From Gammaproteobacteria bacterium (GTDB lineage Bacteria > Pseudomonadota > Gammaproteobacteria > HK1), in contig JAJFJV010000021.1 of NCBI GenBank assembly GCA_021773635.1, positions 1 through 64,000 of the forward strand: DNA of 64,000 bases, given 5' to 3'. The notes beneath the pieces are model-generated. The model was given only the letters and a program-made list of their open reading frames with translations, made no database searches and was not told the origin of the DNA. Both the position numbers and the translations under genes were made by a program. Positions 4,483-14,027 of this stretch are shown here, piece by piece (positions within the stretch are counted from its first letter, which is position 1; each line of letters begins with the position of its first letter).

Positions 4483-7093
<2,611 letters not shown>

Positions 7094-7111
7094 ACCGCTG
7101 GCTTCAATATT

Positions 7112-7148
7112 GGAAGGGGGCGAAACGATGGGTTTGGCTTATGACTGA
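7112..7148 (+). promoter_or_regulatory. Strong Shine-Dalgarno and six-codon ORF before the carbonic anhydrase
   Basis: GGAAGGGGG at 7112-7120 is ideally spaced for the ATG at 7128, which opens a six-codon reading frame (MGLAYD) ending in TGA at 7146-7148. The carbonic anhydrase ATG at 7141 lies inside this small frame, 20 bases from the same Shine-Dalgarno. Either the small frame couples translation into the enzyme gene, or the enzyme simply uses a poorly spaced site. This is inference from spacing only. Confidence 0.35.
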
Positions 7149-7767
7149 ACGCCTGCTTGAGGGATATCAGCGCTTCAGAAAGGGCTATTTTCGTGAGCAG
7201 AAAAGCCACTTGGGTACTTTAACCAAGGGGCAGTCTCCCAAGGTCGCCCTGGTCAGTTGTTGTGACTCCCGCGTGGACCCGGGGATCCTCTTCGACGCCA
7301 CGCCGGGCGATATCTTTGTCGTTCGCAATGTTGCCAACCTGGTGCCTCCGTGGGAGCCGGATGGTCTCCACCATGGCACCAGCGCGGCACTGGAGTTCGC
7401 TGTCACCAAACTTGGTGTGGAACATCTGGTGGTCCTTGGACATGCCAACTGTGGAGGAATTCGGGCGCTGATGGAGCATTCCCCGGATGCGGCGCAGGAC
7501 AGTTTCATCGCCCGCTGGATGGATATTGCCGCCGCCGCAAAAAAGGAAGTGCTTGGCCGTAAAGATTTGCAGGGGATTGAGGCCCAATGTCACGCCTGTG
7601 AACAGGCCGCAGTTCGCATCTCACTGCGCAACCTGATGAGCTTCCCATGGATTCGCAGTGCGGTAACCAAAGGCCAATTGAGCTTGCACGGCTGGTATTA
7701 CGATTTACACGACGGACTTATCCTGCAACTCGAAGATGGCATGGAGCTTGGTCAGTCCGGTGACTGA
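7141..7767 (+). CDS. Beta-class carbonic anhydrase
   Basis: Interconverts CO2 and bicarbonate in the cytoplasm. The 208-residue product carries the zinc ligands of beta-carbonic anhydrases: Cys41 in CCDSRVDP with the Asp42-Arg44 dyad, and His101 and Cys104 in GHANCGGI. The RNVANLVPP segment and a second conserved aromatic/Leu-rich end (GQLSLHGWYYDLHDGLI) are as expected. It stands alone between serS and a strong terminator, so it probably ends the transcript. No bicarbonate transporter is adjacent. Confidence 0.93.
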   Translation: MTERLLEGYQRFRKGYFREQKSHLGTLTKGQSPKVALVSCCDSRVDPGILFDATPGDIFVVRNVANLVPPWEPDGLHHGTSAALEFAVTKLGVEHLVVLGHANCGGIRALMEHSPDAAQDSFIARWMDIAAAAKKEVLGRKDLQGIEAQCHACEQAAVRISLRNLMSFPWIRSAVTKGQLSLHGWYYDLHDGLILQLEDGMELGQSGD

Positions 7768-7803
7768 CCATCAGGGACAGGGAAGAGGGGGCTGTATGCT
7801 GCC

Positions 7804-7842
7804 TCCATAAAAAACCCGGCCACGAGCCGGGTTTTTTATGGA
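7804..7842. terminator. Bidirectional rho-independent terminator
   Basis: A perfect inverted repeat of 17 bases per arm (7804-7820 and 7826-7842, loop CACGA) has the GC core ACCCGGC/GCCGGGT bordered by A6 on one side and T6 on the other. It lies between the convergent carbonic anhydrase gene and the BAX-inhibitor family gene and can serve both. Confidence 0.93.
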
Positions 7843-7855
7843 GCATGATTTGCAA

Positions 7856-8524
7856 CTAGTCCTCGCCGGCAAAGGCCCCCAGAAGATGAAGCAGGGAGGT
7901 GAACAGGTTGAAGATGATCACATATAAGCTGACGGTCGCCATGATGTAGTTGGTCTCTCCACCGTGAATCATTGCACTGGTCTGATACAGAATCAGCCCG
8001 GACATCAGCAGGATGAAGATGGCGGATACCGCCAGCGAAAGGGCCGGCACACTGAAAAACATTGCCCCGAGGCCCGCAAGGAAGGCCACCAGGATGCCGA
8101 CCATGAGGAAGCCGCCCATGAAGCTGAAGTCTTTCTGTGAGCTCAGCGCATAACCGGAAAGCCCGAGAAAGATGATGCCGGTCCCGCCCATGGCCATCAT
8201 CACCAACTGGCTGCCATTACCGAAAGCGTGTACGTAGAAGCTGAGGATGGGACCGAGGGTCAGACCCATGAATCCGGTCAGGGCAAATACACAAACCAGA
8301 CCCATGGCGCTGTTACGCAGGCGTGTGGTGAGGAATAGCAGGCCAAAGTAGCCTCCCAGGACTATAAGAGGATGCATGGGAGGGAAACCAACGGCCATGG
8401 AGATGCCTGCGCTCAGGGCACTGAACAGCAGGGTCATGGACAGCAGGGTATAGGTATTGCGAATCAGTTTGCTGGTAGCAAGGCTCGCGACCGGGCGGGC
8501 AATTGCGGGATTGTTGGGAAACAT
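7856..8524 (-). CDS. BAX inhibitor-1 / YccA family membrane protein
   Basis: The 222-residue product has seven hydrophobic segments and family features such as NTYTLLSMTLLFSA near the N terminus and a conserved C-terminal SLYVIIFNLFTSLLHLLG. Bacterial YccA-type members are inner-membrane proteins that modulate FtsH; BsYetJ-like members conduct calcium. Which role applies here cannot be told. The ATG at 8524 is used because AGGAGA lies 5-6 bases upstream; a longer in-frame reading from 8551 adds nine residues without a ribosome site. Confidence 0.92.
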   Translation of the reverse strand: MFPNNPAIARPVASLATSKLIRNTYTLLSMTLLFSALSAGISMAVGFPPMHPLIVLGGYFGLLFLTTRLRNSAMGLVCVFALTGFMGLTLGPILSFYVHAFGNGSQLVMMAMGGTGIIFLGLSGYALSSQKDFSFMGGFLMVGILVAFLAGLGAMFFSVPALSLAVSAIFILLMSGLILYQTSAMIHGGETNYIMATVSLYVIIFNLFTSLLHLLGAFAGED

Positions 8525-8674
8525 GACATATCTCCTGTAAAAAGCCATCAATCAGACGCGCCATCTTACCTGCGCGTGCAATCTCGTCAACCGCTTAGAT
8601 GGGGTCGCACCACACAAGTTTCAAGTCCCCCATACTTTCGTTGTTCCACCTCAATACGCTATTCTTCGCCCCCC

Positions 8675-8762
8675 GGAGAGGTGGCCGAGTGGTTTAAGGC
8701 GGTAGTCTTGAAAACTATTGAACCTAACGGTTCCGGGGGTTCGAATCCCTCCCTCTCCGCCA
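8675..8762 (+). tRNA. tRNA-Ser (TGA)
   Basis: An 88-base class II tRNA with acceptor arms GGAGAGG/CCTCTCC, a D-arm GTGGCCGAGTGGTTTAAGGC, anticodon loop CTTGAAA (anticodon TGA), a long variable arm around CCTAACGG, TTCGAAT in the T loop and an encoded CCA at 8760-8762. Its last 19 bases recur at 8883-8901 (see the repeat entry). Confidence 0.96.
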
Positions 8763-8784
8763 ATTTAGTTTTTTCTATTAATCA

Positions 8785-8901
8785 GGGAGGGATGAGAACC
8801 CCCGTCGGGTTCGACAAATTCGCCAGGAGCGAATTTGGACGCGTAAGCGCCCGTAGGGCGAAGGCTAGGGATGGCCTGAGTCAATCCCTCCCTCTCCACC
8901 A
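8785..8901 (+). repeat. Structured element ending in a copy of the tRNA-Ser 3' end
   Basis: Bases 8883-8901 repeat the last 19 bases of the tRNA-Ser gene with one change (G to A at the discriminator, then CCA). The element opens with GGGAGGGAT (8785-8793), which is complementary both to ATCCCTCCC in that copy (8884-8892) and to the same stretch in the tRNA itself. Between them are three further hairpins: GAACCC/GGGTTC (8796-8812), a perfect 9-bp CAAATTCGC/GCGAATTTG (8815-8837), and CGCCC/GGGCG (8848-8860). There is no convincing reading frame. It resembles in plan the repeats after E. coli tyrT that carry the last 19 bases of the tRNA gene (rtT RNA); homology is not claimed. Confidence 0.75.
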
Positions 8902-9094
8902 ATATATCCTTTACAATCAACGGATTATTAATGGCGTTTTCACTTAGCGACCCTGGTGCGACCCCTGATCACCCTACTATCCGTCACTCTCACGTCACTA
9001 CTTTCCGGCGCGAACAGTTTGATGGCCTTCTGGCCAATCCTACCTAGGCCCATGCTATAACACTCCCTAACCCCAGTGGAAAAAGGAGAATTCC
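8902..9094. other. Intergenic region, no gene seen
   Basis: Together with the element above, this makes about 330 bases without a protein gene between tRNA-Ser and the zinc-ribbon protein. The last 25 bases hold the AAGGAGAA ribosome site of the next gene. No clear terminator or promoter was recognised. Confidence 0.5.
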
Positions 9095-9361
9095 ATGGCC
9101 GAAGAACAACTCATCTGCACCAACTGCAACACCCCCAGCTACGGCACGGTTTTCCATGAAGGCAGCATCTTCATCGAAATTATACTTTGGCTCGCCTTCC
9201 TGATCCCCGGCCTTGTCTACTCTGCCTGGCGCCACACCAGCGGCCGTAAAATCATCTGCCCTGCCTGCCACCAAGAAACACTCATCCCCATCCATAGCCC
9301 CCGCGGTGAACAAATCGCCGCCGAAATATACGGCCAAATGCAACAGAAAAAAGGGCAATAA
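9095..9361 (+). CDS. Small zinc-ribbon membrane protein, unknown function
   Basis: The 88-residue product has two Cys-x2-Cys pairs (CTNC near residue 8 and CPAC near residue 55) flanking one hydrophobic segment (IEIILWLAFLIPGLVYSAW, about residues 27-45). The GLVYSAWR stretch resembles the membrane segment of small Imm_superinfect-type proteins (inference). The two cysteine pairs would form one zinc ribbon across a hairpin. Translation signals are good: AAGGAGAA before ATG 9095. It is convergent with the cyclophilin gene. Confidence 0.72.
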   Translation: MAEEQLICTNCNTPSYGTVFHEGSIFIEIILWLAFLIPGLVYSAWRHTSGRKIICPACHQETLIPIHSPRGEQIAAEIYGQMQQKKGQ

Positions 9362-9392
9362 AAAAACCGGTTGGTCCCGCTCCGCCAATTAT

Positions 9393-10013
9393 TTACTTCC
9401 CCTCAACCGAGGTCGCCGCGACGACCCGCTGCACCGAAGTAATTTTCACCATGGTCCGCGGGACATCCCGGCCAAAAGGGCCACCGGCCCCCGTCGGAGT
9501 GCTCCGAATCTGTTCCAATACCTCCAGTCCCTCCACCACTCGTCCAAAGACGGTATAGCCCCAGCCGCGCCGGGTCGGTGCCGTATGATTGAGAAAATCG
9601 TTGTCCACGACGTTAATGAAAAATTGGGCGGTAGCGGAATGGGGATCGCCCGTGCGGGCCATGGCAATACTGCCACGGAGATTCTTGAGGCCGTTATTTG
9701 CCTCGTTGTGGATTGGCTCATGAGACGTCTTGCGACGATAGCTCGCATCGAAGCCGCCACCCTGGATCATAAAGTTACCGATCACCCGGTGAAAAATGGT
9801 GCCATCGTAAAACCCCTCATCCACGTAGCGCAGGAAATTGGCCACTGATAGGGGTGCCTTCCTGGGATTAAGCTCCAGAACCATGTTTCCCGCCGAAGTC
9901 TTCATCAGCACACGGGGTGCTGTTTCTCCGCGTGCCTGCAAGGACATACTGACGAGCAGGAGTAGGGAGAGCAGGGCAGTAAGGTGGTTTTTCCAACCAC
10001 GCGAGTTGAGCAT
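9393..10013 (-). CDS. ppiA: Periplasmic peptidyl-prolyl cis-trans isomerase, cyclophilin type
   Basis: Catalyses proline isomerisation during protein folding. The 206-residue precursor has a signal peptide (LTALLSLLLLVSMSLQARG, cleavage probably after about residue 30) and a single-domain bacterial cyclophilin: FHRVIGNFMIQGG, SIAMARTGDPHSATAQFFINV and VFGRVVEGLEVL. The active-site Arg (in FHRV) and Phe/Gln residues (FMIQGG, AQFF) are present. AAGGAG lies 7-8 bases before ATG 10013. The signal peptide makes it PpiA-like rather than cytoplasmic PpiB. Confidence 0.92.
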   Translation of the reverse strand: MLNSRGWKNHLTALLSLLLLVSMSLQARGETAPRVLMKTSAGNMVLELNPRKAPLSVANFLRYVDEGFYDGTIFHRVIGNFMIQGGGFDASYRRKTSHEPIHNEANNGLKNLRGSIAMARTGDPHSATAQFFINVVDNDFLNHTAPTRRGWGYTVFGRVVEGLEVLEQIRSTPTGAGGPFGRDVPRTMVKITSVQRVVAATSVEGK

Positions 10014-10439
10014 GGATCTTTCTCCTTAAAGTTGGTTTCAGGCAAAGCGCGCATGGTAGCGCCTCCGCGAGGCGGCGCAAGTATCTCCCAGCTCGCTCAG
10101 AGCAGAACATCGTTTTTGGCCTACATAACACGGGGGGATTTCCTACATTTGACCTGCGGTAATTCCATGACATGGTTCAGCCACATCTATAAGGTTCATC
10201 CTGTGCACATGGAAACCAAGGCAGGTCTTGGTGCACAAGGACTTTTACTGGTATCTCTTCCTGTTGTGCGCTCTCCCCAACACCCGAACTCTCAGCCTGG
10301 TCGAGGTGCATTCCATTTTGTCCCCATACGAGACTCGGCATACACTTTACTGCCGAAAACGCCTAAGCCATATGTGTACCGCCGTCCCGTGCGGGACGAA
10401 TGAAGCGACACCGAGAAAGCCACTTACTGGAAACAGAAC
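10014..10439. other. 426-base divergent intergenic region
   Basis: No protein gene is visible. It must hold the promoters of the divergent cyclophilin and response-regulator genes. A near-palindrome GTCCCG-TG-CGGGAC lies at 10384-10397, about 45 bases before the regulator start, and could be an operator or leader hairpin. No terminator was found. Confidence 0.45.
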
Positions 10440-11084
10440 ATGCCGCGTATTCTCCTCGTAGATGATCATGCTCTCGTACGGGCCGGCGTCCGGCGCTTGC
10501 TGGAAGATGCTGACGATGTCGAAATTGTTGCCGAGGCGGCGAGCGGAGAAGAGGCCATCAATCTTGCCCGCACGCTCGATTTCGATCTCATCCTCATGGA
10601 TATCAATATGCCTGGTTTTGGTGGTCTGGAGGCAAGCCGAAAGCTGCTTAAACTCGACCCGGCAATGAAAATTATTATCCTCAGCATGCACGTGGATGGA
10701 CCTCTGCCCGGCAAACTCCTGGATATTGGCGTCATGGGCTACCTCACCAAGGGCTGCAGCCAAGAAGAAATGCTGCTGGCTCTGCGAGAGGTGCATGCCG
10801 GGAAACGCTATATCTGTGCCGAAACGGCGCAACAGATGGCGCTCAGTCACCACGGCAAGAACGCCTCTCCTTTTGCTGAACTATCGCCCCGAGAGATGGA
10901 TATCGTGATTCTCTGCGCCAAGGGAATGCGGATCCAGGCGATCGGCGAACAGCTGTGTATCAGTCCCAAGACCGTAAGCACATATCGCAGCCGGATCCAT
11001 GAAAAGCTTAATATCGAGAACGATGTCGAACTGACTCGCCTTGCCATCCTCCATCAGCTTGTTGAGCTTGAGCCCAACAGCTGA
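10440..11084 (+). CDS. uvrY: UvrY/GacA-family response regulator
   Basis: A 214-residue two-domain regulator. The receiver domain has the acidic pair Asp8-Asp9, phospho-acceptor Asp54 in LILMDINMPG and Lys104 in YLTKG; the C-terminal LuxR/FixJ helix-turn-helix is LSPREMDIVILCAKGMRIQAIGEQLCISPKTVSTYRSRI (about residues 148-190). GacA/UvrY is the partner of the BarA/GacS kinase and drives CsrB/C-type small RNA synthesis. The assignment rests on sequence plus position immediately before uvrC, the standard gammaproteobacterial arrangement. The ribosome site (GGAAACAGAAC) is weak. Confidence 0.93.
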   Translation: MPRILLVDDHALVRAGVRRLLEDADDVEIVAEAASGEEAINLARTLDFDLILMDINMPGFGGLEASRKLLKLDPAMKIIILSMHVDGPLPGKLLDIGVMGYLTKGCSQEEMLLALREVHAGKRYICAETAQQMALSHHGKNASPFAELSPREMDIVILCAKGMRIQAIGEQLCISPKTVSTYRSRIHEKLNIENDVELTRLAILHQLVELEPNS

Positions 11085-11153
11085 ACCCGGCTTTTCGGTG
11101 TCAGGAGCCTAATCCGGTGTCAGGGTTTATTCCAGAGCGGTATAGTTGCCGCG

Positions 11154-13007
11154 ATGCCTGCTGAAAAATCTACAACACCCTCCTTTGATGGCCAACGCTT
11201 CCTGCGCACCCTGACAGCAAAACCGGGGGTATACCGCATGCTGGATGACGCGGGACAAATCCTTTATGTCGGCAAAGCCAAAAATCTCAAGAAACGGGTT
11301 TCCAGCTACTTCCGGAAAAGTGAAACGCTCGCCCCCAAAACCCGTGCGCTGATGTTCGTCACACGGGCAATGGAAGTGACCGTGACTCACACGGAAACCG
11401 AGGCCCTGTTGCTGGAAAGCAACCTCATCAAGGAATATCACCCTCGTTTCAATATCCTGTTTCGTGACGACAAGAGCTTTCCTTATATCTATCTCTCCAC
11501 CGAGCAAGGCTATCCGGGGTTGAGCTTCCATCGCGGTTCCAGACGCAAGGCGGGGCGCTATTTTGGTCCCTTTCCCAGTTCCGCCGCGGTACGTGAAAGC
11601 CTCAGCCTGCTACAAAAACTGTTTCATGTACGCCAGTGTGAAGATAGCTTTTTTCAGAATCGCTCACGCCCTTGCCTGCAATACCAGATCAAGCGCTGCA
11701 GCGGGCCTTGCACCCGCGAAATCAGTGAACAGGCCTATCGCGAGGACGTCAGACATACCCAAATGTTTCTGGAAGGACGCAGTCAACGCGTCAGCAAGGA
11801 GCTGGTGGGGCGTATGGAGACGGCGGCGACGGAGCTGGATTTTGAGCTGGCCGCGCGTTACCGGGATCAGATCGCCTGGCTGAAGCAAATTCAGGCGCGT
11901 CAGCATGTCAGTGGCATACGCAGCGTCGGTGAAATCGATGTCATTGCCGCACATCATGAACATGGTGCGGCCGTCGTGGAGGTCTGTTTTATCCGCCGGG
12001 GCGAGCGTCTTGGCAATAAGGCCTATTTCCCGCGTCGCGCCACTGAGGCCAGCGCAGCTGACTTGCTGCAGGCCTTTCTGCCCCAGTATTACCTCGCCAG
12101 TCGCCCCGTACCCCGTGAGATTCTCGTCAGTAGCGATTTTCCCGGATTGGAAGCGCTGGCCGAAGTACTCAGCCAGCGTTGTAAACGCCGTGTACGCATC
12201 GCCTATCGGCTACGCGGTGAACGTGCGCGCTGGCTGCAGATGGCCGAAGAAAATGCCCGCTTCGCCCTGCGCCAGCATCTGGCAGGAAGGGAAAGCATCC
12301 AGCAACGTCTGGAAAAACTACAACAAGCCCTTGGACTGGAATCAATGCCCGAGCGCCTGGAATGCTTTGATATCAGCCATACTCGTGGCGAAGCAACGGT
12401 GGCTTCATGTGTAGTTTTTGGCAGCGAGGGTGCGCGCAAGGGCGATTACCGAAAATTCAACATTGAGGGTATTGTTCCCGGCGATGACTATGCCGCCATG
12501 CACCAGGCTTTAAGTCGACGCTATGGTCGTATGCAGCAGTCTGAAGACGCGTGTTTACCCGATATCATTATCGTGGATGGAGGCAAGGGACAACTCAGCC
12601 AGGCACTGGCGGTAATGGCCGAATTGGGGTTGCCCGGCGTTACCTTATTGGGCTTTGCCAAGGGGCCGGGCAGAAAGGCCGGCCTTGAGTCGCTGTTCTT
12701 GCCGGGAAGCAAGGCCCCTCTTATACTTCCGCCAGAATCCGGGGCTCTGCATCTGGTTCAGCAAATTCGCGATGAGGCTCACCGTTTTGCTATCAGCGGG
12801 CACCGTGCACGGCGGGCAAAAAAGCGCATGCACTCAGTGCTGGAGGATATTCCTGGCGTCGGCAGCAAGCGTCGCCAGAATCTCCTCAGGGCCTTCGGTG
12901 GCCTGCAGGGTGTCTCCGGTGCGGGGATAGAAGATCTCTCCGCAGTGGATGGCATCAACTCCCAACTGGCAAGCAGTATTTACGAGTATTTTCACGGTAG
13001 CGAATGA
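11154..13007 (+). CDS. uvrC: Excinuclease ABC subunit C
   Basis: UvrC makes the dual incision in nucleotide excision repair. The 617-residue product has the N-terminal GIY-YIG nuclease (PGVYRMLDDAGQILYVGKAKNLKKRV, about residues 22-50), a UVR motif region (ELDFELAARYRDQIAWLKQ), the RNase H-like 3'/5' nuclease half (LECFDISHTRGEATVASCVVF and PDIIIVDGGKGQL) and a C-terminal helix-hairpin-helix pair (LEDIPGVGSKRRQNLLRAFGG). It sits 69 bp after uvrY and overlaps pgsA by four bases (ATGA). Confidence 0.98.
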   Translation: MPAEKSTTPSFDGQRFLRTLTAKPGVYRMLDDAGQILYVGKAKNLKKRVSSYFRKSETLAPKTRALMFVTRAMEVTVTHTETEALLLESNLIKEYHPRFNILFRDDKSFPYIYLSTEQGYPGLSFHRGSRRKAGRYFGPFPSSAAVRESLSLLQKLFHVRQCEDSFFQNRSRPCLQYQIKRCSGPCTREISEQAYREDVRHTQMFLEGRSQRVSKELVGRMETAATELDFELAARYRDQIAWLKQIQARQHVSGIRSVGEIDVIAAHHEHGAAVVEVCFIRRGERLGNKAYFPRRATEASAADLLQAFLPQYYLASRPVPREILVSSDFPGLEALAEVLSQRCKRRVRIAYRLRGERARWLQMAEENARFALRQHLAGRESIQQRLEKLQQALGLESMPERLECFDISHTRGEATVASCVVFGSEGARKGDYRKFNIEGIVPGDDYAAMHQALSRRYGRMQQSEDACLPDIIIVDGGKGQLSQALAVMAELGLPGVTLLGFAKGPGRKAGLESLFLPGSKAPLILPPESGALHLVQQIRDEAHRFAISGHRARRAKKRMHSVLEDIPGVGSKRRQNLLRAFGGLQGVSGAGIEDLSAVDGINSQLASSIYEYFHGSE

Positions 13008-13564
13008 ATATCCCCAATACCCTCACCTTAATTCGTATCGCACTGATACCACTTTTCGTGGCCCTTTTTTTCCTGCCATTCTCGTGGGCACATGCAGCAA
13101 CTGCGGCAGTCTTTGGTATCGCGGCCCTGACCGACCTGCTGGATGGCTACCTTGCCCGCCGCCTGCATCAAACCTCGGCCCTGGGCGCCTTTCTCGACCC
13201 CGTGGCGGACAAATTAATGGTCACGGTAGCACTGGTTCTGCTGGTGCAGGCTCATCCCTTCTGGTGGATGGCATTGCCGGCCGCCATCATCATCTGTCGC
13301 GAGATCGCAATTTCGGCCCTGCGCGAATGGATGGCGGAGCTGGGGCAGCGCACCCAGGTGGCCGTGGCCACCATCGGCAAAGTGAAAACTACGGTGCAAG
13401 TCTTTGCCTTGCTGCTATTGCTCTACCATCAGGCTGTGGGCTTCTTCCCCACCTATGAAGTCGGCGTAACCCTGCTATATCTCGCCGCCATCCTCACGCT
13501 CTGGTCAATGGTGGTGTACCTGCACGCAGCCATCCCCTTTCTGCTGGCCTCCGACAAGCACTAG
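13004..13564 (+). CDS. pgsA: Phosphatidylglycerophosphate synthase
   Basis: Transfers a phosphatidyl group from CDP-diacylglycerol to glycerol-3-phosphate, the committed step to phosphatidylglycerol and cardiolipin. The 186-residue membrane protein contains the CDP-alcohol phosphatidyltransferase motif DG-x2-AR-x8-G-x3-D-x3-D (DLLDGYLARR ... GAFLDPVADK, about residues 43-69) and several membrane helices. It overlaps uvrC by ATGA and precedes tRNA-Gly, as in E. coli. Confidence 0.96.
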   Translation: MNIPNTLTLIRIALIPLFVALFFLPFSWAHAATAAVFGIAALTDLLDGYLARRLHQTSALGAFLDPVADKLMVTVALVLLVQAHPFWWMALPAAIIICREIAISALREWMAELGQRTQVAVATIGKVKTTVQVFALLLLLYHQAVGFFPTYEVGVTLLYLAAILTLWSMVVYLHAAIPFLLASDKH

Positions 13565-13580
13565 CCGATGGAATCTGTCC

Positions 13581-13608
13581 TTGACAGGCCGGGGTTCGCC
13601 GCTAGAAT
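13581..13608 (+). promoter_or_regulatory. Sigma70-type promoter for tRNA-Gly
   Basis: TTGACA (13581-13586) and TAGAAT (13603-13608) are separated by 16 bases and lie 15 bases before the mature tRNA start. The GC-rich stretch CAGCCCCC after the -10 box is of the kind found in stringently controlled stable-RNA promoters (known pattern; not tested here). Confidence 0.8.
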
Positions 13609-13623
13609 ACAGCCCCCTGTAGT

Positions 13624-13699
<76 letters not shown>

Positions 13700-13712
13700 A
13701 ATTTAGTAATCG

Positions 13713-13748
13713 GCCGGTGTGGGGCAGTATGACCACCGGCTTTTTTTT
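13713..13748 (+). terminator. Rho-independent terminator between tRNA-Gly and tRNA-Cys
   Basis: GCCGGTG (13713-13719) pairs with CACCGGC (13734-13740) across a 14-base loop and is followed by eight Ts. It would end or reduce the tRNA-Gly transcript before tRNA-Cys. Confidence 0.8.
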
Positions 13749-13781
13749 CGCGCGGGCTCTGCCGGGTTCACGCGTTCCTCA

Positions 13782-13855
13782 GGCTGAGTGGCAGAGTGGT
13801 CATGCAGCGGCCTGCAAAGCCGTGTACGCCGGTTCGATTCCGGCCTCAGCCTCCA
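13782..13855 (+). tRNA. tRNA-Cys (GCA)
   Basis: A 74-base tRNA with acceptor arms GGCTGAG/CTCAGCC, anticodon arm CGGCC-TGCAAAG-CCG (anticodon GCA), TTCGATT in the T loop and encoded CCA at 13853-13855. Equivalent to E. coli cysT by position. Confidence 0.96.
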
Positions 13856-13889
13856 ACTATTTCCTTTCTGAATCTCAGCAAAAACCCAC

Positions 13890-13977
13890 GCCCGGGTGGC
13901 GGAACAGGTAGACGCAGCGGACTTAAAATCCGCCGGTCATTGCGACCGTGCCGGTTCGATTCCGGCCCTGGGCACCA
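13890..13977 (+). tRNA. tRNA-Leu (TAA)
   Basis: An 88-base class II tRNA with acceptor arms GCCCGGG/CCTGGGC (one G-T pair), anticodon loop CTTAAAA (anticodon TAA), a variable arm CGGTCATTGCGACCG, TTCGATT in the T loop and encoded CCA. Equivalent to E. coli leuZ by position. Confidence 0.96.
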
Positions 13978-14027
13978 TACGATACTCCGCAAGCATCCAG
14001 CCCGAACCCCGGCAAGAGTTTCCGGTT

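Follow-up and report, generated by a model that had tools for sequence, protein, structure and literature searches.

The tRNA-Ser(UGA) gene in the window, the whole stretch of 64,000 nucleotides analysed here, is followed by a structured repeat that carries a copy of the end of that same tRNA. We read this feature as a tRNA-linked repeat (TLR) whose mobile core lands in T-loops and yields a weak CsrA-decoy RNA, and we put the probability of this joint reading at roughly 0.6. TLRs have been known in E. coli since 1978 (Egan and Landy 1978; Rudd 1999; as cited in PMC8144298), where 22 of them lie at ten loci in 1–5 copies per locus, the 3' 18–19 bp of each being identical to the upstream tRNA or rRNA (PMC8144298). 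They have remained without an accepted function or origin ever since; the starvation phenotype formerly credited to RtT was retracted, and conservation had earlier been reported inside the Enterobacteriales (PMC8144298). One TLR copy sits within the rrnB T1–T2 terminator region that is widely used on expression plasmids (PMC8144298). A testable origin and a testable RNA role can now be offered for these repeats.

The element begins about 20–22 nt downstream of the tRNA, behind a 21-nt spacer, and the locus is laid out as follows.

8675-8762 (+): intact tRNA-Ser(UGA) gene, anticodon TGA in DNA, CCA encoded (ARAGORN, Rfam tRNA).
8763-8783 (+): spacer S, in part repeated 3' of the element at 8902-8920 (direct repeat).
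8784-8804 (+): inverted copy (19/21) of the T-arm together with the inner acceptor strand, forming the 5' strand of stems P1 and P2.
8807-8814 (+): GGGTTCGA, a direct copy of the 5' strand and the start of the T-loop; 3' strand of P2 (from the sequence).
8815-8882 (+): core, 68 nt, with TTCGA on its left and AATCC on its right (boundaries from identical cores at different tRNAs).
8815-8837 (+): P3 hairpin, loop CAGGA, with GGA at 8826-8828 (fold and family covariation).
8849-8859 (+): P4 hairpin, GCCC-GTA-GGGC (fold and family covariation).
8862-8877 (+): P5 hairpin, loop AGGGAT (ANGGAN-type) at 8867-8872 (loop assigned from the family).
8883-8901 (+): 19-base copy of the tRNA 3' end, 18/19, terminated by CCA; 3' strand of P1.

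An earlier note on this DNA, made from the letters alone, had placed a repeat with a tRNA 3'-end copy after tRNA-Ser, and both its coordinates and the copy, including CCA, proved correct; the single mismatch in the 19 bases is the discriminator base (CGCCA to CACCA). It had described the start of the element as complementary to the tRNA 3' region, which holds for the T-arm and part of the acceptor but does not reach CCA. The closed structure that it proposed was borne out: P1 pairs 8785-8793 with 8884-8892 and closes over P2–P5, four inner hairpins instead of the three then counted. The folding energy of the 117-nt stretch is -55.2 kcal/mol, whereas its shuffled versions give -41.5 +/- 4.3 (z = -3.2). 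In the single-sequence minimum free energy fold, the P5 loop of the window element is partly paired. The inverted repeat (8734-8754 and 8784-8804) spans 21 nt with 90% complementarity, and the direct repeat (8744-8781 and 8883-8920) spans 38 nt at 79% identity, starting in the T-loop and extending 19 nt beyond CCA into the spacer, where identity is lower; everything that these repeats enclose amounts to a 139-nt unit. A candidate third copy of the tRNA 3' end at 9369-9390 (16/22) fell within the range of shuffles (maximum 17) and was rejected. Between the TLR and the next gene lies an 88-aa ORF (9095-9361) with a weak, below-cut-off zf-LITAF-like match, which is missing at the equivalent site in two other genomes (G001 and G002). 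The Rfam family sX4, a proteobacterial sRNA, matches 8665-8795 at 33.7 bits (cut-off 70), overlapping tRNA-Ser, and may itself be tRNA-derived.

The feature is almost certainly a TLR of the RtT/RttR/RrB kind, since it lies directly 3' of a tRNA, repeats 18 of the last 19 bases of that tRNA and is homologous to the E. coli TLRs. The Rfam model RtT (RF00391) matches 8771-8901 over its whole length in a search by E-value (44.7 bits, E = 1.3e-7), a score that misses the gathering score of 45 bits by 0.3, so that under Rfam's rule the element is not an RF00391 member; at the gathering threshold, tRNAs alone were reported. The parts of the E. coli tyrT/tyrV sequence follow in the identical order, and the annotated E. 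coli rttR starts 8 nt past the tRNA CCA and ends on the copied CCA. The same core occurs in E. coli rrB, placed there before a copy of the 5S end, and rrB is matched at 45.3 bits (E = 1.1e-10) by our covariance model R1, whose seed of 15 elements includes the window element and the E. coli Tyr elements and none linked to 5S. GTTCG is invariant across the 15 elements aligned. What had been noted as an analogy with E. coli tyrT is thus homology, given the full-length RtT match and the architecture common to tyrT/tyrV and rrB.

Each element tends to carry the end of its own tRNA. Among the 81 elements with a same-strand tRNA at most 1 kb upstream, 59 copy the last 19 bases of that tRNA at 16/19 or better (37 exactly), whereas the same stretches never reached 16/19 in 3,728 comparisons with unrelated tRNAs. 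Together with the covariation of five helices, this excludes chance as the source of the repeat. The spacers beyond CCA are also repeated, often including a terminator. At Gln(CUG), the two spacer copies agree within a genome and differ between sister species, a sequence pattern that points to homogenisation or repeated formation.

The search of other genomes, which the earlier note had set as a check, placed such elements behind many tRNAs (Ser, Gln, Arg, Tyr, Pro, Val, Glu and others). At E 0.001 or better, R1 matched 128 of the 274 gammaproteobacterial genomes scanned and 107 of 221 genera, against 18 of 274 genomes in which RF00391 scored above its cut-off. A pattern scan in the named collection likewise gave matches in nearly all cases from Gammaproteobacteria, and matches beyond the class are concentrated in one family within the same phylum; four loci outside the class (L314, L315, L317 and L318) lie behind Ser and Asp tRNAs and carry their own 3' ends. 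The sample of loci is skewed towards high-scoring matches and one core pattern. In the 2.55-Mb genome from which the window comes, R1 found nine matches against one copy found by BLAST. The sites there, counting R1 matches and traces seen by reading, lie at Ser(UGA), Arg(ACG), Ser(GCU), Phe(GAA), Gln(CUG) and Ser(CGA), with two at Met(CAU), a tandem pair at Arg(CCG) and a further site between prophage genes. Plasmid and phage sequences gave no BLAST match to the element. A TLR-type element lies on an IMG/VR contig classed as viral (L312, 2230-2348). At another locus (L127, G130:C11:28500-38500), several TLR copies stand 1–4 kb apart with small genes between them, which resembles a gene-cassette array behind tRNA-Ser; two of the intervening AbrB-like proteins are near-identical.

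The core of about 70 nt has probably moved as a unit. Its mobility, a putative property of TLRs that is new in this analysis, is well supported by the positions and flanks of the cores. The usual position is TTCGA^AT of the T-loop. Mean core identity is 0.634 between different tRNAs of the same genome against 0.488 between different genomes at the same tRNA, a within-genome likeness that could partly come from gene conversion. In one genome (G264), the cores at Pro(UGG) and Arg(UCU) are identical while each is flanked by its own tRNA's end; the Arg(UCU) copy runs 5' into the anticodon arm, and this extent places the core between TTCGA and ATCC. Inverted cores occur at Met and Phe in the window's own genome and at Phe in another (G030). 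A pattern scan that required TTCGA and the P3 hairpin but no tRNA gave 130 hits, of which 90 lay behind a tRNA; the remainder include full-length tRNA copies broken in the T-loop. Upon excision of the core in silico and joining of its flanks, ARAGORN called a junction-spanning tRNA at 14 homologous sites, several of which tolerate a wide range of cut lengths, while the strict ones (e.g. L207, L241 and L234) fix the boundary. R1 already recovers core-only copies, and three further settings illustrate where cores lie.

G000:C11:221363-221489 (L093/L178; also L176 in G002): full-length Ser(CGA) copy with its T-loop interrupted by a core, 44 nt upstream of the intact gene, in the window's own genome.
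G000:C5:8566-8691 (-) (L094, 1501-1626): core with a prophage-like structural gene on either side, CCCG-ATGA-[core]-ATGA-ACGCC, in the window's own genome; prophage nature judged by eye from ORFs.
L229, about 6084-6160, and L305, about 510-590: on each of these two contigs, a core interrupts a Y2_Tnp (IS91-type) transposase gene at GGTTC.

ATGA flanks the prophage-site core on both sides as a possible target-site duplication; none is clear in T-loops. The P5 hairpin of that core, with AGGGAGG, stands directly before a start codon. Genomes of the genus differ at the tRNA-Ser(UGA) site, which is full in the window's genome, truncated in G001 and empty in the sister species G002, where the same tRNA-Ser and conserved flanking sequence are found; both insertion elsewhere and loss in G002 fit this pattern. 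The Met and Arg(ACG) sites also vary within the genus. By the script's criterion, an inverted T-arm copy is present at the join in 88 of 205 sites. An inverted T-arm to the right of the interrupted tRNA copies had seemed likely by eye and was unsupported when tested. No candidate mobility enzyme for the core was found. IS91 elements prefer GTTC as a target, and an IS91-type target preference may be one route of mobility; the prophage site is without GTTC. A retro-copy origin, by 5'-truncated cDNA and end inversion, was also considered and would fit the variable 5' extents.

The earlier note would have counted its idea as refuted if there were no transcript and no conservation of the hairpins; the hairpins are conserved, so that this refutation does not hold, and all helices covary. 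In the alignment of 103 matches, which was fitted to the model, 90.8% of cells pair and 30 of 31 pairs have two-sided changes; the covariation score is 0.471 against 0.148 for shuffles, and none of 500 shuffles reached it. Covariation in P1 and P2 is expected if both arms were copied from the tRNA, an objection from which P3–P5 are free. Among imperfect pairs in P3–P5, G-U exceeds A-C (38 against 18, p = 0.01), as expected for RNA from the element's strand. GGA occupies the P3 loop in 81 of 97 elements (shuffled mean 26, maximum 38) and the P5 loop in 74 of 97 (shuffled mean 36, maximum 48), with few in the P2 and P4 loops; both P3 and P5 loops carry it in 71 of 97, including the window element. 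The motif CANGGANG is found on the sense strand of 32 cores and on the opposite strand of none, and since CANGGANG is partly stem, the GGA loop count is the fairer number.

Such GGA loops are the CsrA signature reported for RrB, and RrA, RrB and RrF are read-through products from between dual rRNA terminators that bind Hfq and CsrA (PMC8144298). The hypothesis that TLRs may act as CsrA decoys follows from this likeness of sequence, and that decoy action would be the main cellular effect of the element is a tentative suggestion. The host genome carries a csrA gene. Across genomes, element presence was not associated with csrA (114/128 against 121/146, p = 0.17), and csrA was not detected in 14 genomes with the element, some of which are incomplete. 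P3 and P5 are without GGA in the E. coli tyrT/tyrV elements, and inverted cores would present UCC, not GGA, relative to the tRNA promoter. The genes csrA and tRNA-Ser(GCU) and a TLR are often adjacent (L086, L115, L146 and others), and csrA-serV synteny is conserved; this adjacency would place a GGA-loop RNA beside the csrA gene itself.

An intrinsic terminator separates the tRNA from the element in 23 of 53 first copies and in none of the shuffled spacers; one follows the copy in 19 of 53. Terminators before and after the element are the arrangement published for RrB (PMC8144298). Terminator scans found no intrinsic terminator in spacer S (8763-8783), and read-through at the window copy would therefore pass none. 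In silico, the full precursor loses the T-stem and acceptor pairs (pair probabilities 0), and the inverted arm, with its 19/21 complementarity, could capture the T-arm. The competition with the tRNA fold that had been proposed is thus seen in the computed fold, but as a general function it is unlikely, given the 23 of 53 first copies behind a terminator and the co-transcriptional folding of tRNAs. A cis regulator on this basis would use the inverted arm to bind the T-arm and acceptor, and the 3' copy to lift or take over that pairing, and would thereby tune tRNA folding or processing; this is a very improbable account of the element. The decoy for processing enzymes that the earlier note also suggested gained no support and met no contrary evidence. 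tRNAs normally fold and are processed co-transcriptionally, the computed fold ignores this as well as modifications and tertiary contacts, and in several elements the inverted arm is missing or the intact tRNA comes after the element.

To account for these observations, we propose that a small mobile hairpin core of about 70 nt would land preferentially at GTTCGA^AT in the T-loop of tRNA genes. The surviving alleles would be those in which one half of the tRNA was duplicated and the intact tRNA retained, the duplicated half usually being the 3' end along with the spacer behind it, to which an inverted T-arm is often added, and in some cases the entire 5' part. Insertion with duplication of a tRNA half would explain why each element bears the 3' end of its own tRNA. 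Transcription that starts at the tRNA promoter and continues past the tRNA would produce the RNA, which may mature at the copied CCA in the way that the E. coli RttR annotation indicates. Its two GGA loops would be able to bind CsrA/RsmA, creating a weak decoy tied to tRNA transcription. Active mobility, an enzyme for it, transcription at this locus, CsrA binding and a benefit to the cell are what we infer from sequence. If the proposal is true, insertion of a core brings a CsrA sponge under tRNA-promoter control. The broadest form of the proposal, in which these are class-wide minimal mobile elements that land in T-loops, survive through tRNA-half duplication and carry a two-site CsrA decoy as cargo under a tRNA promoter, strikes us as rather doubtful.

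A possible but less likely account is that of a purely selfish or neutral palindromic element, whose core spreads into T-loop-like DNA and decays without any RNA function; its hairpins and GGA loops would persist through being recognised, in single-stranded or cruciform DNA, by the mobility machinery. The variable presence inside one genus, both orientations of the core, decayed and truncated copies, insertions into a prophage as well as into transposase genes, the terminators ahead of many elements and the lack of csrA association are all in keeping with it. However, the G-U excess in the core stems is expected for an RNA from one strand, GGA is strand-specific and confined to two loops, and E. 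coli transcribes both rrB, which binds CsrA there, and RttR (PMC8144298). The earlier note had also raised the scar of an integrated element, and of its functional suggestions this came nearest to the new evidence, but in a form that it had not foreseen, a core of about 70 nt inside a T-loop copy. Taken strictly, with the 19-base copies as the attL and attR sites left by a tyrosine-recombinase element that has since shrunk, the scar is the least probable of the readings weighed: att sites are usually laid out as a direct repeat of the 3' end of a tRNA, and the repeat begins in the T-loop, but att integration predicts neither a core inside a T-loop copy nor an inverted T-arm. Moreover, this core is found again at numerous tRNAs across 128 genomes and also away from tRNAs, and no integrase was recognised by eye among the ORFs at 5000-14000 of the window.

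The mobile-core TLR with a decoy RNA can be set beside several known systems. Rickettsia palindromic elements, which are short, palindromic and inserted inside genes of several kinds, are a lead for comparison. Like the putative RNA proposed here, 3'ETS-leuZ derives from the tail of a tRNA transcript, but it acts by pairing with RyhB and RybB, and we know of no tRNA 3' copy or hairpin core in it. CsrB/CsrC, McaS and GadY also present GGA in hairpin loops, with two sites believed for McaS and GadY (PMC8144298); in contrast, they have no tie to a tRNA 3' copy, and CsrB/CsrC have many sites. RrA, RrB and RrF have a core with two GGA loops and a direct repeat of the upstream RNA 3' end, but they lie behind 5S rRNA rather than tRNA, and CsrA and Hfq binding has been measured for them, whereas the window element is known from its sequence. 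The RtT model (RF00391) covers the window element in full, and the copy in E. coli RttR likewise terminates on CCA; RttR differs in lying behind tRNA-Tyr, in tandem and without GGA loops. With the E. coli TLRs as a whole, the elements described here share the place directly behind a tRNA or 5S, the 18–19 bp of its own 3' end, the hairpin layout and, at some loci, dual terminators; unlike those repeats, known from E. coli and the Enterobacteriales, they occur in about half of the genomes sampled from the class, and their cores are also found inverted, in full-length tRNA copies and away from tRNAs.
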